64,000 bases of DNA from NCBI GenBank assembly GCA_903913215.1, contig CAIWKE010000030.1, positions 1 to 64,000 of the forward strand, written 5' to 3'. The stretch comes from an uncultured Holophagaceae bacterium. Lineage in GTDB: Bacteria > Acidobacteriota > Holophagae > Holophagales > Holophagaceae. The position numbers and the translations under genes are program-made. Position 1 is the stretch's first letter; every line of letters begins with the position of its first letter. This document shows, piece after piece, positions 11,769 to 21,564 of the stretch. The notes under the pieces are model-generated. The model did no database searches, had not been told where the DNA came from, and saw nothing but the letters and a program-made list of their open reading frames with translations.

Positions 11769-13127
11769 ATGGCCGAATCGATCCCCCTGCAGACCAAGGC
11801 CGCGGTGAGCCCCGCCAAGGGTGCCCTGCGGGTGGTGCTGCTCTATGCGGGCTTTTCGGGCCTCTGGATCCTTTTGTCCGATCGGGCCGTGGAGGCCCTG
11901 TTCAGGGATCCGGCCATCATGACCCGAGTCAGCATCCTCAAGGGATGGGTCTTTGTGGCGGTCACCGCGGGACTCCTTTTCCTGATGGTCAAGCGCTTGG
12001 TGGAGGGTGTGGCCAGTCGGGAAGCGAAGCTGCAGACCCTCATGAACGCCATCCCCGACCTGGTCTGGCTGAAGAATTCCGAGGGCGTCTACCTGGGCTG
12101 CAACCGCGCCTTCGAAAGCTTTTTCGGGGCCCCGGAAGCGCAGATTCTGGGCAGGACCGACTACGACTTCGTGCCCAAGGAACTGGCAGATTTCTTCCGG
12201 CAGAAGGACCTAGAGGCCATCGCTTCTGGGGGGGCCCGGGAGAACGAAGAGTGGATCACCATCGCCGAGACCGGGAAGAAGATCCTGCTGGAGACCCTCA
12301 AGGTGCCCATGCGCGATCCCGACGGCGCGCTCGTCGGCGTCCTGGGCATTGGCCGGGACGTGACAGAAAACCGCAGACTCCTGGCCGAGCAGGTTCGCCT
12401 GGAGGATCAACTGCATCAGGCGCAGAAAATGGAGCTGGTGGGCCGCTTTGCCGGGGGCGTCGCCCACGACTACAACAACATGCTGGGGGTCATCCTGGCC
12501 AACGCCGACCTGGCCATGTACCACATGCCCTTGGAGCAGCCTGAAAGGAAGCGCCTAGAGGAGATCGTCCGGGCCGCCCGGCATTCGGCGGACCTCACGC
12601 GCCAGCTGCTGGCTTTCGCCCGGCAGCAGCCCGTGGACCCGCGCTTGGCGAACCTCAACGAAGAAGTGGCCAGTCTCATTGGGGTTTTAGGTCGTCTGGT
12701 AGGTGCTGAGATCCACTTGGAGTGGACACCCGCCCCGACCCTCTGGAAGGTGCGGGTGGACGCCACTCAGTTTGGCCAGGTGCTCACCAACCTGGTGGTC
12801 AACGCCCGGGACGCTTCTCCTGACGGGGGACGCATCCAGCTGGGCACGACCAACTGCACACTCACGGAGGCCGACTGCGCAGATTTGCCCGATCTCCGGC
12901 CCGGCGATCACGTCTGCCTCAGTGTCCAGGACGCAGGGCGGGGCATCCGACCCGAGTTGCTGAGCCGGATCTTCGAGCCCTTCTTCACCACCAAACCCCT
13001 GGGTGGGGGCACGGGCCTGGGCCTGGCCCTGGTCCATGGGGTGGTGCGGCAGAACCACGGTGCCATCCGCGTGGACAGCACGGTGGGCGAAGGCACCTGT
13101 TTCCAGATCTACCTTCCCCGAGCCTGA
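11769..13127 (+). CDS. PAS-domain membrane histidine kinase
   Basis: 452 residues. Two N-terminal membrane helices (about 20-37 and 56-76) flank a short periplasmic loop. A PAS domain spans roughly 85-205 (IPDLVWLKNSEGVYLGCN ... GRTDYDFVP). The dimerisation domain carries GGVAHDYNNML (phospho-acceptor His) and the ATPase domain has NLVVNARDA, DAGRGI and GGGTGLGLALV. This is the NtrB-like HDxNN type. It has no receiver and no adjacent response regulator, and converges with rseP. Confidence 0.9.
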   Translation: MAESIPLQTKAAVSPAKGALRVVLLYAGFSGLWILLSDRAVEALFRDPAIMTRVSILKGWVFVAVTAGLLFLMVKRLVEGVASREAKLQTLMNAIPDLVWLKNSEGVYLGCNRAFESFFGAPEAQILGRTDYDFVPKELADFFRQKDLEAIASGGARENEEWITIAETGKKILLETLKVPMRDPDGALVGVLGIGRDVTENRRLLAEQVRLEDQLHQAQKMELVGRFAGGVAHDYNNMLGVILANADLAMYHMPLEQPERKRLEEIVRAARHSADLTRQLLAFARQQPVDPRLANLNEEVASLIGVLGRLVGAEIHLEWTPAPTLWKVRVDATQFGQVLTNLVVNARDASPDGGRIQLGTTNCTLTEADCADLPDLRPGDHVCLSVQDAGRGIRPELLSRIFEPFFTTKPLGGGTGLGLALVHGVVRQNHGAIRVDSTVGEGTCFQIYLPRA

Positions 13128-17193: not shown

Positions 17194-19581
17194 ATGGTTC
17201 AGTTCAACACGCGAGCGAACGAGATCCTGCTCAAACTGGTCTATTACGGGCCAGGTCTCTCGGGCAAGACGACCAACCTGCAGTCACTTCACGCCATGTG
17301 TTCAGACACGCAGCGGGGGGAGATGTTCTCCGTCAACACCCAGGAGGACCGGACCCTCTTCTTCGACCTGCTGCCCATCAACCTGGGCTACATCTACGGT
17401 AACGCCATCCATCTCCAGATCTACACGGTGCCTGGCCAGGTGCAGTACGACGCCAGTCGCCGAGTGGTGCTGGGCGGGGCTGACGGTGTGGTCTTCGTGG
17501 CGGACTCCAGCGAAGCCAAGATGCAGGACAACGTGGACTCGCTGTCGAACCTCTACCACAACCTCAATGCGAACCGCTTGAACATCAAGCAGATCCCCTT
17601 CGTCATCCAATACAACAAGCGGGACCTGCCGGACAGCATGGCTGTGGGAGTGATGAATCGGCGCCTCAACTTCAGGAGCGTCCCCTTCTTCGAGTCCGTG
17701 GCCAATAGGGGCGACGGGGTTCTGGACACCTTCCTGTCCATCACCCGCGAGACTGTCGGCTACACCTTCAAGAAGTACCACCTGGACAAGAAGATCAAGG
17801 ACTTCGACGAGATGCTCAATCTCATCGAATCCAACGTGCGGACCAGCATGCGCGAGCTGCCGCCCCCGCAGGATTCCCCCTCGGTACCCTCCGTGGAGTC
17901 CACGGTACTTCGGCACAGCAATGTGAGCGTGGCCGACCTGGTGCCCGGCAAGGTGGCCGATGCCCAGGAGCTGTTGGAGGATGCCCTCAAGTCCAATATG
18001 GAGACCGCGCGGCTCTATTCGGAGCTGAAGCAGGTCAAGGATTCACTGGAAAAGAAGAGCGAGGAGATGAGCCAGCTTTACTCCCAGCTGGACCGGGCCA
18101 ACCAGGACAACCTCAAGACCCGGCGCTACCTGGAAGGGCTGGTGCAGAACATCGGCGAAGCGGTCATCTCCTACTCGCCTGAAGGCAAGATCCTCACCTG
18201 GAACATGGCCGCCGAGCGCATCTTCGGCTATTCGCGTCCTGAGATCGTGGGCCGGAGCATGGCCCAGCTGATCCCCGACCCCCTGCTGGGGGAGCTGAGC
18301 CAAGTGGCGCAGCAGGTGGCCCAGGGCCAGGTGGTGCGGGATATGGCCACGACCCGGCTCCGCAAGGGCAGTGTGGCCTTCCCCGCCAGCATCACTTACG
18401 CCCCGGTCCGGGGCAGCGATGATCGCGTCCTGGCCTTCTCGGCCCTGGTGCGAGACATGTCTGAGCAGAAGGTGTTGCAGGATCGGCTCATCACCTCCCA
18501 GAAGCACGAGGCCCTGGGCCGCCTGGTGCCCTCCCTCTTCCATGACGTCACCAACCAGCTCACGCCGGTCCTCCTGGAAGCGCGGATGATCGCCGAGTCC
18601 AGCCTGGACCCTCACCAGGCCGAGCAGGCGGCACGGCTCTCCAAGGCCGTGGATGCGGTGCAGGAACTGCTGCGACCCCTTCAGACCGTCCTGAATCCCC
18701 CCGCCCTCCAGCGGGAGCTGGCCCAGTTGAACGGGGTGGTCCAGGAAGCCATCTCCCTGGTGGAGGCCCGGGCCACGCGCCTGGGCATCACCCTTGAGGT
18801 GACTCTGGATCCGACCCTCCCGGAGACGGTGCTGGATGCGGGCCTCATGGTCCAGGCCGTGACGAACCTCCTCCTGAACGGCGTCCAGGCCCTCTCCGTC
18901 TGTGAAGTGAAGCGGCTCCGGGTGGCCACACGCAGTTCCGGCGAAAGCCTCCAGGTGGTGGTCCAGGACACGGGTTTGGCCCTGCCCGATGGCCGCCAGG
19001 CCGAGCTCTTCGATCCGGCCTGTGCTACCTCCACTGAGGCCCTGGCCCTGCCCATCGCCGATATCATCACCCGGCAGCACGGCGGACGCTTGGGGCTGCG
19101 CAGCCAAGAGGGAGTTGGCAACGCCTTCCTCCTGGAGATCCCGCTCACGGTCCCCGCCACCCCACTCGCTCCCAAAGCAGTTCCTGTGCCCGAGGGCCTC
19201 AAGGGCCGTCGCGCCCTGGTGGTGGACGACGAAAGCTTCCTCTTGGAATGCCTGGTGGACGCTCTTGGTGCCTGGGGCATGGAGGTCGCCTCCAGTACCC
19301 AGGGCGAGGAAGCCATCCAGCAGCTGGAGACCGGCGAGTTCGATGTCATCGTTTCCGACATCCGCATGCCAGGCCTTTCCGGGGTGGACCTCTACGACTG
19401 GCTCAAGGTTCAGCGCCCGGCCATGACCCGCCGGATCCTCTACACCACGGGCGATTCCTTCGATGCGAAGACTCGCACCTTCCTGGAAACGAACCAAGTG
19501 CCCTATCTGGGTAAGCCCTTTGATCTAAAGCAACTCAAACAAAGTCTGGAGCGACTGCTAGATACTCCGGTTGAGGCCTGA
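17194..19581 (+). CDS. MglA-like GTPase fused to PAS, histidine-kinase-like and receiver domains
   Basis: A 795-residue fusion. Residues 1-195 are a full MglA-type small GTPase: P-loop GPGLSGKTT (19-27), TVPGQ (78-82) followed by YDASRR, and the base-recognition NKRD (141-144). A linker with a coiled coil (about 250-305) leads to a PAS domain (about 305-425), a dimerisation region with FHDVTNQ (His in an HDxxN context) and an ATPase-like domain with NLLLNGVQAL and DTG. The expected GTGLGL ATP-lid motif is not visible: the lid reads FDPACATSTEALALPIAD. The C-terminal receiver (about 665-790) has VVDDE, SDIRMPG and a GKPF lysine. MglA proteins control cell polarity and gliding; this fusion may tie GTP state to phosphotransfer. 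Kinase activity is doubtful. Confidence 0.88.
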   Translation: MVQFNTRANEILLKLVYYGPGLSGKTTNLQSLHAMCSDTQRGEMFSVNTQEDRTLFFDLLPINLGYIYGNAIHLQIYTVPGQVQYDASRRVVLGGADGVVFVADSSEAKMQDNVDSLSNLYHNLNANRLNIKQIPFVIQYNKRDLPDSMAVGVMNRRLNFRSVPFFESVANRGDGVLDTFLSITRETVGYTFKKYHLDKKIKDFDEMLNLIESNVRTSMRELPPPQDSPSVPSVESTVLRHSNVSVADLVPGKVADAQELLEDALKSNMETARLYSELKQVKDSLEKKSEEMSQLYSQLDRANQDNLKTRRYLEGLVQNIGEAVISYSPEGKILTWNMAAERIFGYSRPEIVGRSMAQLIPDPLLGELSQVAQQVAQGQVVRDMATTRLRKGSVAFPASITYAPVRGSDDRVLAFSALVRDMSEQKVLQDRLITSQKHEALGRLVPSLFHDVTNQLTPVLLEARMIAESSLDPHQAEQAARLSKAVDAVQELLRPLQTVLNPPALQRELAQLNGVVQEAISLVEARATRLGITLEVTLDPTLPETVLDAGLMVQAVTNLLLNGVQALSVCEVKRLRVATRSSGESLQVVVQDTGLALPDGRQAELFDPACATSTEALALPIADIITRQHGGRLGLRSQEGVGNAFLLEIPLTVPATPLAPKAVPVPEGLKGRRALVVDDESFLLECLVDALGAWGMEVASSTQGEEAIQQLETGEFDVIVSDIRMPGLSGVDLYDWLKVQRPAMTRRILYTTGDSFDAKTRTFLETNQVPYLGKPFDLKQLKQSLERLLDTPVEA

Positions 19582-19638: not shown

Positions 19639-20748
19639 ATGCAGCGAAGTTGGGTACTGGCCACACTTGTGGCTTCCGGCCTTCTGGCCCAGACGCCGCC
19701 GACTGAACCCGCCCCGGCCCCGGCTCCAGTCCAGGTCCCCGAGGCCAAGCCTGAAGCGCCTGCGCCGCCCAAGCTGGAAGATCTCAAGCCCATTCCGGCG
19801 CATGGGGTCGATCTATTCGGCCAGCTCCGGCCCAGTCAGCGCAAGCTGCGCTACCACTTGCACCGCGCCGCCCTTTCCGCCCACGAGCTGGGCTTCTTCC
19901 GCAGCCATCCGCGCAGTCTGGAAGTACGTGAGGCCCTGCAGGACTTGCTGAAGGCCAAGCCGGTCATCCCCGAGAAGGTCCAGGCCGCCCTGCCCGCCGT
20001 GGAGTCCTACCTGGTGAAGCTCCGGGCCAACCATGGGCTCTACGACACCACGGGCACCAAGCTCCTCCTGGAAGGTAGCTGGAAGGATCTGCAGCAGGCC
20101 GCCCAGGGCGCGGCCAAGGGGGGCACCAAGGGCCTGGAGTCCCGGCTGGCCAAGCTGAAGGGTTTGCTCCTCGACCCCAAGGTGGATGCCGCTGCCCCCA
20201 GCTGGGCGCCTCCTGAGGCTCCAGCCAAGGGTAAGAAGGCCAAGGCCCTGAAGGCACCCAAGGCGCCTGAGGGCTTCACCGAACAGAAGGCCATCCTGGC
20301 CCTCTGGCTCAAGCGCTCCCAGGCTTGGGTGGACAACACTCGCCAGGAAGTCGAGGTCAAGGGTGAGAAGAAGACCCGCAGTCTGCCGGATCCCGCCCAG
20401 ACCAAGGCCCTCCAGGACCTCCTCACCTGGCTGGAGAAGGATGATCTGGACCTGCTGCGCGATCCCGCCTTCGCCTGGCTGGACCTGGGCCGCCTGGGCG
20501 TGGAAGGCGACAACCTGCTGGCCCAGGCGCCCGCGATCGCGGCCTCCAAGGCCCCCGAAGGCGCCCCTATTGAACCCCATGTCACGGCCAGCCTGGAACC
20601 CGTCATGGGCGAAGCCAAGCTCGCCAAGGGTGAAGAGAAGCGCAGCGTGCTGAACGAGGTGAAGCTGGGCCCCGCCCCCGCCACCCCCGCCGACATGTGG
20701 ACGACCTTCGAGGCCCAGGCCCGCAGCCGCGAATACCTGCACAAGTAG
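19639..20748 (+). CDS. Secreted protein of unknown function, weakly like the N-terminal part of M49 peptidases
   Basis: 369 residues with a signal peptide (to about residue 17) and a Pro/Ala/Glu-rich linker. Residues 55-150 (VDLFGQLRPSQRKLRYHLHRAA ... YLVKLRANHGLYD, quoted in parts) recall the N-terminal helical region of dipeptidyl-peptidase III (M49), where a similar spacing precedes its N-G-I-H-H-H segment. The zinc motif HEXXGH of that family is absent and the C-terminal half matches nothing I recognise. It lies 57 bases after the GTPase-kinase gene and before a strong terminator. Function unknown; the M49 similarity is from memory and tentative. Confidence 0.6.
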   Translation: MQRSWVLATLVASGLLAQTPPTEPAPAPAPVQVPEAKPEAPAPPKLEDLKPIPAHGVDLFGQLRPSQRKLRYHLHRAALSAHELGFFRSHPRSLEVREALQDLLKAKPVIPEKVQAALPAVESYLVKLRANHGLYDTTGTKLLLEGSWKDLQQAAQGAAKGGTKGLESRLAKLKGLLLDPKVDAAAPSWAPPEAPAKGKKAKALKAPKAPEGFTEQKAILALWLKRSQAWVDNTRQEVEVKGEKKTRSLPDPAQTKALQDLLTWLEKDDLDLLRDPAFAWLDLGRLGVEGDNLLAQAPAIAASKAPEGAPIEPHVTASLEPVMGEAKLAKGEEKRSVLNEVKLGPAPATPADMWTTFEAQARSREYLHK

Positions 20749-20760
20749 CCATTACCACCC

Positions 20761-20793
20761 AGAAACACGGGGCGCTGCGCGCCCCGTGTTTCT
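20761..20793. terminator. Bidirectional terminator between convergent genes
   Basis: A perfect 15-bp inverted repeat (20761-20775 with 20779-20793) around a 3-base loop, with short A and T runs at either end. It sits between the convergent stops of the secreted protein and the OmpR-type regulator and should end both transcripts. Confidence 0.85.
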
Positions 20794-21511
20794 ATTCCTC
20801 ACCCTTCCGCTGCTTCCCTTCCGGGTCGAACTGGTAGCCCACGCTGCGGATGGTGTGGACCCAGCGGGGGTGGTGGGGATCGTCCTCCATGACCCGGCGG
20901 ATGCGGACGATGAAGTTATCCACGGTGCGGCTGGTGGGGTAGGCGTCCTCGCCCCAGACCTTGTCCAGGATGTCCGTGCGGCTTACCACCTGGCCTGGCC
21001 GCTCCATGAGCAGCTTGAGGATCATGGATTCCTTCACGCCCAGCTGGAAAGTGCCGCTGGGCCCCTCGCCACAGAAGTTGTCGAAGTCCACCCAATAGGC
21101 GCCGAAGGGCTGCCGGCTGTTGATCTCGCGGCTCTTGTACCAGGACTCCCGGCGGAGGATGGCCCGCACCCGCAGCAGCAGCTCGCGGACCTGGAAGGGC
21201 TTGCCCAGATAGTCATCGGCGCCGGTCTCGAAGCCGTGGACCCGGTCATCGTCGGTGTTCTTGGCCGTGAGGAAGAGGATGGGCGTGAAGTTCTTGGCCG
21301 CCCGTACCCGCTCGCAGATGGTGTAGCCGTCCAGGCCCGGCAGCATGACGTCCAGGATGACCAGGTCGTAGGCCACGGCCAGGATCTCCTTGAGGGCCTG
21401 GTCGCCCCGGGGGATCCAGGTGCAGGCGAGACCTTCCAGTTCGAGGTTGAGCTTGATGCCTTCGGCGAGGCTGAGCTCGTCTTCCACCAGCAGGATCTTG
21501 GGATCGGACAC
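20792..21511 (-). CDS. OmpR/PhoB-family response regulator (orphan)
   Basis: 239 residues. The receiver has acidic pocket VEDE, phospho-acceptor Asp in LVILDVMLPGLDG, and the conserved LTAKN and GKPF. The C-terminal winged helix ends TIRSVGYQF. A GTG at 21511, preceded by GGAG, starts exactly at the receiver, so it is preferred to the longer ATG frame. No kinase gene is adjacent. It is divergent from the ArnC-like glycosyltransferase, 53 bases apart, which makes that gene a candidate target. Confidence 0.9.
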   Translation of the reverse strand: MSDPKILLVEDELSLAEGIKLNLELEGLACTWIPRGDQALKEILAVAYDLVILDVMLPGLDGYTICERVRAAKNFTPILFLTAKNTDDDRVHGFETGADDYLGKPFQVRELLLRVRAILRRESWYKSREINSRQPFGAYWVDFDNFCGEGPSGTFQLGVKESMILKLLMERPGQVVSRTDILDKVWGEDAYPTSRTVDNFIVRIRRVMEDDPHHPRWVHTIRSVGYQFDPEGKQRKGEE

Positions 21512-21564
21512 GGGAAACTCCAGGACAGGCTTCGATCCTACTAGAATGAGGCGTCGGAGCATCC

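Follow-up and report, generated by a model that had tools for sequence, protein, structure and literature searches.

An MglA-type GTPase joined to PAS, degenerate kinase and receiver domains in one polypeptide of Holophagaceae

The tie between bacterial Ras-like GTPases and two-component signalling is an open question; for RomR, the phosphodonor has been described as unknown (PMC3441718), and the route by which conservon kinases act beside GTPases is still being worked out (PMC13343842). The window analysed here, a 64,000-nucleotide stretch of DNA from an uncultured Holophagaceae bacterium, raises the question within a single gene, in which an MglA-type GTPase, a coiled coil, a PAS domain, a degenerate HisKA/HATPase core and a receiver follow one another in 795 residues. 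Two signalling systems that are usually separate are here carried by one polypeptide, in a family of bacteria from soil and sediment, the Holophagaceae, to which Geothrix belongs, and with both on one chain the link between them becomes directly measurable in vitro. What does a kinase-like core do between an MglA switch and a receiver? Judging from the sequence, we put at about one half the probability that a disarmed kinase has been retained as a phosphatase or scaffold for the chain's own receiver and is joined to a working MglA switch.

ORF translation and Pfam bore out the domain order, reading frame and coordinates that had first been read from the letters (Table 1). Pfam placed PAS at residues 313-422, HATPase_c at 551-652 and Response_reg at 675-785, with weak Ras/Arf matches over the N-terminus; HisKA fell below the Pfam threshold, the H box SLFHDVTNQL being nonetheless visible. 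In the AlphaFold2 model, mostly at pLDDT 70-93, a long helix (residues 257-321) was followed by the PAS domain, the DHp helix pair, an ATPase-like domain and the receiver, and a coiled coil was predicted between GTPase and PAS at about residues 257-310. In Foldseek, the C-terminal part resembled PAS/LOV-histidine kinases, ZraS, HK853 together with its receiver, and DivL (4q20).

Table 1. Features of the fusion gene, in window coordinates.
Feature	Coordinates	Strand	Basis
Whole gene, 795 aa + stop	17194..19581	+	ORF read; 53 orthologous loci
MglA-type GTPase domain, residues 1-186	17194..17751	+	PDB MglA, E 2e-55; 136/186 residues invariant in orthologues
P-loop GPGLSGKTT, residues 19-27	17248..17274	+	Sequence; invariant
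Arg53, counterpart of the MglA arginine finger	17350..17352	+	Invariant in fused and free MglA
Gln82 of TVPGQ (residues 78-82)	17437..17439	+	Invariant in fused and free MglA
NKRD motif, residues 141-144	17614..17625	+	Invariant
Linker with coiled coil, residues 187-310 (long helix from ~257)	17752..18123	+	AlphaFold2 model
PAS domain, residues 311-424	18124..18465	+	Pfam PAS, 3e-14
DHp (HisKA-like) helices, residues 425-500	18466..18693	+	Model and Foldseek; H box visible
His450, H-box histidine	18541..18543	+	Asn in 11, Asp/Thr in 5 orthologues
Asn454 (H+4), phosphatase-type residue	18553..18555	+	Invariant in 47/47 receiver-bearing rows; PMC3510030
Degenerate ATPase (CA) domain, residues 501-655	18694..19158	+	Pfam HATPase_c, 4e-10; lowest conservation of the domains
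Site of the missing ATP lid and GxGLGL box, residues 606-620, FDPACATSTEALALP	19009..19053	+	Orthologue alignment
Receiver domain, residues 673-790	19210..19563	+	Pfam Response_reg, 2e-19
Asp722, receiver phospho-acceptor	19357..19359	+	Invariant, 47/47

When the GTDB genome collection was scanned, 53 orthologous loci (L005-L057) were recovered, labelled nearly all as Holophagaceae, Geothrix or Acidobacteria and including isolates, in which the protein was mostly 778-806 residues long and without internal stops. Wherever the contig was long enough, a divergent uppS-cdsA-dxr-rseP cluster adjoined the fusion gene, and in most loci a secreted protein, then an OmpR-type regulator, then a glycosyltransferase followed downstream; on this fixed synteny a recent horizontal arrival within the family was rejected. 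In the window's genus, 23 of the 26 sampled genomes gave a full match and one more gave a piece at a contig end. Since these loci are mostly full-length, uninterrupted and constant in their neighbours, the fusion is real, and it is old in Holophagaceae/Geothrix; the single chain claimed in the sequence-only reading stood, and the many assemblies gave no evidence of split genes. That an error of sequencing or assembly had joined two genes was rejected as well, and keeps virtually no weight: independent assemblies, isolates among them, contain dozens of orthologues without interruption, which already refutes it, and all domains are under purifying selection. As a separate observation, two genomes of 1.2 Mb from this family (G182 and G316) had no MglA, no MglB and no PilT above the cut-off, an absence that fits, and does not prove, a link to type IV pili.

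The best solved match to residues 1-199 was M. xanthus MglA, ungapped over residues 5-185, with the MglA entry 3t12 next. The fold of this half rests on the sequence match, because the AlphaFold2 model was unusable over residues 1-170 (pLDDT of about 30), where the alignment is nearly without variation. All of the G motifs recognized earlier in the N-terminus (GPGLSGKTT, TVPGQ and NKRD) were found, and the marks of the MglA family are present: G1, G3 with Thr78 and Gln82, G4, and the intrinsic Arg53. The domain belongs to the same family as MglA of M. xanthus and Thermus and shares its motifs, Arg53 and Gln82 standing at identical residue numbers. K25, T26, R53, T54, D58, T78, Q82 and NKRD were invariant in fused and free MglA, and every catalytic residue was kept between orthologues; the best reading of these intact residues is a predicted working MglA switch. 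Seven residues (Q3, H33, N48, L59, Q84, V92 and F180) separated the fused forms from single-domain MglA and were mostly common to the MglA-GAF-histidine kinase (MglA-GAF-HK) fusions described below. The arginine-finger loop spans residues 44-58, and so contains residue 48, and residue 59 is among those that move with switch 1 (PMC6876712). N48 and L59 as a switch-1 signature of fused forms were weakened to a lead, both being shared by the tailed paralogue L004.

Constraint differed along the chain: mean pairwise identity among receiver-bearing orthologues was 94% for the GTPase, 76% for the coil, 72% for PAS, 60% for DHp, 54% for CA and 70% for the receiver, and Ka/Ks over 12 pairs ranged from 0.02 to 0.08 in the GTPase and from 0.07 to 0.47 in CA. 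Purifying selection acts on every domain, with the GTPase the most constrained and the kinase core the least; as Ka/Ks in CA lies below neutral, the kinase-like part is constrained and is not in neutral decay.

Every one of the 52 rows spanning the region (the window and 51 orthologues) had an ATP lid shortened by about 10 residues and TEALGLP-like sequences in place of the GxGLGL of the G2 box; the G1 box had likewise lost its second half and, with it, the second glycine. The missing GTGLGL lid seen in the window is thus general, and no orthologue had the intact lid that was to argue for a kinase. An active hybrid kinase has been considered for the Geothrix-like branch, which would bind ATP without a lid, pass phosphate from His450 to Asp722 and take the GTPase as a regulatory input. 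His450 is kept in all 36 receiver-bearing rows of that set (the window and 35 orthologues), 35 of them with its acidic neighbour, a residue required for kinase activity in the four HisKA kinases of PMC3510030; the N-box Asn is mostly retained there, the G1 box is preserved in its first half in many rows, HATPase_c is still recognized by Pfam, and related MglA-GAF-HK fusions have complete lids. We nevertheless hold this activity to be unlikely, given that the lid and both G2 glycines are missing from every orthologue, that the second G1 glycine is gone, that CA changes fastest of the domains, and that His450 is wholly lost, to Asn, in a sister branch of identical layout (the other 11 receiver-bearing rows). 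In the larger, His450-keeping set, the window included, a phosphotransfer role may persist.

Asn454 was present in all 47 receiver-bearing rows, persisting in the 11 that lack His450, and was one of only four invariant positions (L428, N454, L456 and P495) among the 76 of DHp. Five further orthologues (L042, L044, L045, L053 and L055) end after the CA domain; in them residue 450 is Asp or Thr and residue 454 is Ala or Ser, so that the H-box histidine is replaced in 16 orthologues altogether. On a tree restricted to residues 1-424, His450, Asn454 and the loss of the receiver each accounted for one change; their association therefore consists of single events, one natural experiment and not statistics. 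CrdS and three further HisKA kinases require the H+4 residue for phosphatase and not for kinase activity (PMC3510030). The acidic residue beside the histidine was dropped as part of a phosphatase motif, because the same paper ties it to kinase activity and only H+4 is phosphatase-specific; a literature search for the NtrB H139N precedent gave no paper. The pattern of Asn454 and receiver agrees with a phosphatase whose substrate would be the receiver on the same chain, and from the retention of Asn454 we infer that the core may have such activity; with the kinase part degenerate and Asn454 kept, the earlier suggestion of a pseudokinase or phosphatase is the better-supported reading.

Asn454 may also have been kept for structure. 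PAS, DHp and CA would then be non-enzymatic throughout, dimerizing the chain and positioning GTPase and receiver, which would agree with the poor conservation of DHp and CA, with the five orthologues that exist without receiver and Asn454, and with same-class relatives that consist of MglA and PAS only (L096 and L131). Such a pure scaffold seems improbable to us, however, as Asn454 is one of so few invariant DHp positions in the 47 receiver-bearing rows and sits at a site whose importance for phosphatase activity has been demonstrated.

The receiver was borne out as one with an intact phospho-acceptor: its acidic pair D678/D679, D722, T751 and K774 were invariant in 47/47 rows, and only 5 residues follow it, with no output domain. 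A reverse phosphorelay, in which another kinase would charge the receiver and phosphate would pass through His450 to a separate regulator, e.g. the neighbouring OmpR-type protein (20792-21562), draws on this intact receiver, on the His450 of the window's branch and on the OmpR-type regulator, without a kinase of its own, that adjoins the locus in most relatives. It is nonetheless very unlikely, since 11 receiver-bearing orthologues, several with the same neighbouring regulator, have Asn at position 450.

If the kinase core is indeed kept as a phosphatase or scaffold, the fusion would be a soluble, probably dimeric signalling protein, in which an MglA-family GTPase is joined to the cytoplasmic half of a lid-less hybrid histidine kinase; its catalytic behaviour, dimerization, switch coupling and any role in polarity or pili are what we infer. 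The likely dimer axis is formed by the coiled coil and the DHp helices, PAS is the likely sensor, and the signal would probably enter through PAS and through whatever charges the receiver. The core, most likely without self-phosphorylation, would dock the chain's own receiver and, by way of Asn454, remove phosphate set there by other kinases or small phosphodonors. Receiver phosphorylation and the nucleotide state of the GTPase would be read together, and the probable output would be GTPase-bound effectors, as the parallel with Myxococcus MglA and RomR suggests; a part in polarity or motility is suggested by family membership. Going from one chain to coupled switches, the nucleotide state of MglA might act by way of the coiled coil and a phosphatase-only kinase to determine how far the chain's receiver is phosphorylated, or the influence might run the other way. 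We offer this coupling as a tentative and rather doubtful extension; were it true, Ras-type and two-component signalling would be directly interdependent in one polypeptide, and MglA-fused sensor kinases would form a general signalling class of Acidobacteriota, with the Holophagae fusion as its kinase-dead branch.

The layout had been thought to stand alone, which did not hold in the wider phylum. MglA was found in 267 of the 396 Acidobacteriota genomes surveyed, many times in long open frames, and the roughly 40 loci that were read comprised free MglA, MglA with long tails, MglA-GAF, MglA-GAF-HK and PAS-type fusions. Modules of MglA, GAF or PAS and a histidine-kinase-like part are common in Acidobacteriota, and most have intact lids, GLGLGL or a close variant being kept in most MglA-GAF-HK proteins. 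Within the same class, the PAS types were MglA-PAS, MglA-PAS-degenerate kinase (L093 and L094) and MglA-PAS-degenerate kinase-receiver. In a quick GTPase tree the Holophagae PAS-type fusions formed one clade (99), apart from the free MglA that the same genome encodes, and grouped weakly (77) with the GAF-HK fusions. The fusion is a class Holophagae variant of the MglA-sensor-kinase layout. Like it, the MglA-GAF-HK fusions (L097-L101, L103, L106-L108 and L111) have an N-terminal MglA, a linker, a sensor and a DHp-CA core; unlike it, they have GAF in place of PAS, an intact ATP lid in most and no receiver. Some that bear a lid also lack the H-box histidine (L097, L098, L107 and L108), so its loss is not specific to the Holophagae branch. 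These MglA-GAF-HK proteins are an apparently undescribed class in themselves. MglA-GAF without a kinase part was seen in L104, L105 and L125. Paralogues with long, mostly low-complexity tails were L003, L004, L109, L110, L124, L126-L130 and L132; several of the tailed forms end in a short conserved hydrophobic stretch, and two belong to the window's genome.

In that genome a normal MglB-MglA pair lies on contig 11, in addition to the fusion and the two tailed MglA; as a normal free MglA stands beside MglB, the fusion supplements the usual MglA and does not replace it, and we read it as an additional MglA-type switch with a receiver in cis. Free MglA of M. xanthus is under the control of its partner, MglB shifting Arg53 and Thr54 into place (PMC6876712, PMC11016934). 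MglA of M. xanthus and Thermus is a free protein of about 195 residues beside MglB, whereas here it is the N-terminus of a 795-residue chain with no MglB or other roadblock gene found at the locus, the genome's MglB adjoining the free MglA. A second, weak Robl_LC7 match (contig 32) was rejected as a roadblock partner, being surrounded by unrelated genes.

The closest functional relatives are the conservons (Cvn) of Actinomycetota, in which the histidine kinase CvnA works with the MglA-type GTPase CvnD (PMC4316618, PMC13343842) and kinase and GTPase are separate genes (PMC13343842). In a conservon, kinase, roadblock protein, CvnC and GTPase are encoded by individual genes of one operon, the kinase being an autophosphorylating membrane protein and an MglB homologue being present; the fusion, in contrast, is one soluble chain with a disarmed core and no roadblock at its locus. 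In the RomR-MglA module of Myxococcus, which resembles the fusion in pairing a receiver with MglA, a receiver-domain protein acts with MglA (PMC3441718), but RomR is a separate protein in which receiver and linker precede a conserved C-terminal region of its own (RomR-C), whereas the receiver of the fusion lies in cis at the very C-terminus. Non-canonical HisKA proteins such as DivL resemble the fusion in keeping the histidine-kinase fold with a changed phospho-acceptor. DivL is not known to have a GTPase domain or a fused receiver. The survey of Wuichet and Sogaard-Andersen selected only G-domain proteins of 150-240 residues (PMC4316618), which left MglA fusions, this MglA-containing 795-residue chain among them, largely outside it. 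A literature search that covered few subscription journals found no published description of the fusion.

Beside the fusion, the gene that follows it encodes a secreted protein of 369 residues (window 19639-20748, +), which resembles the N-terminal part of a 711-residue protein downstream in L056 (7374-9509). The longer protein matches Peptidase_M49 (E 2e-50), and since the window's version has no M49 match, its peptidase part is apparently absent. An ordinary PAS-histidine kinase with intact motifs (window 11769-13127, +), encoded some 4 kb upstream, could conceivably charge the receiver of the fusion but is an unsupported candidate. The OmpR-type response regulator on the minus strand, with no kinase of its own directly adjoining, is conserved beside the fusion across Holophagaceae.
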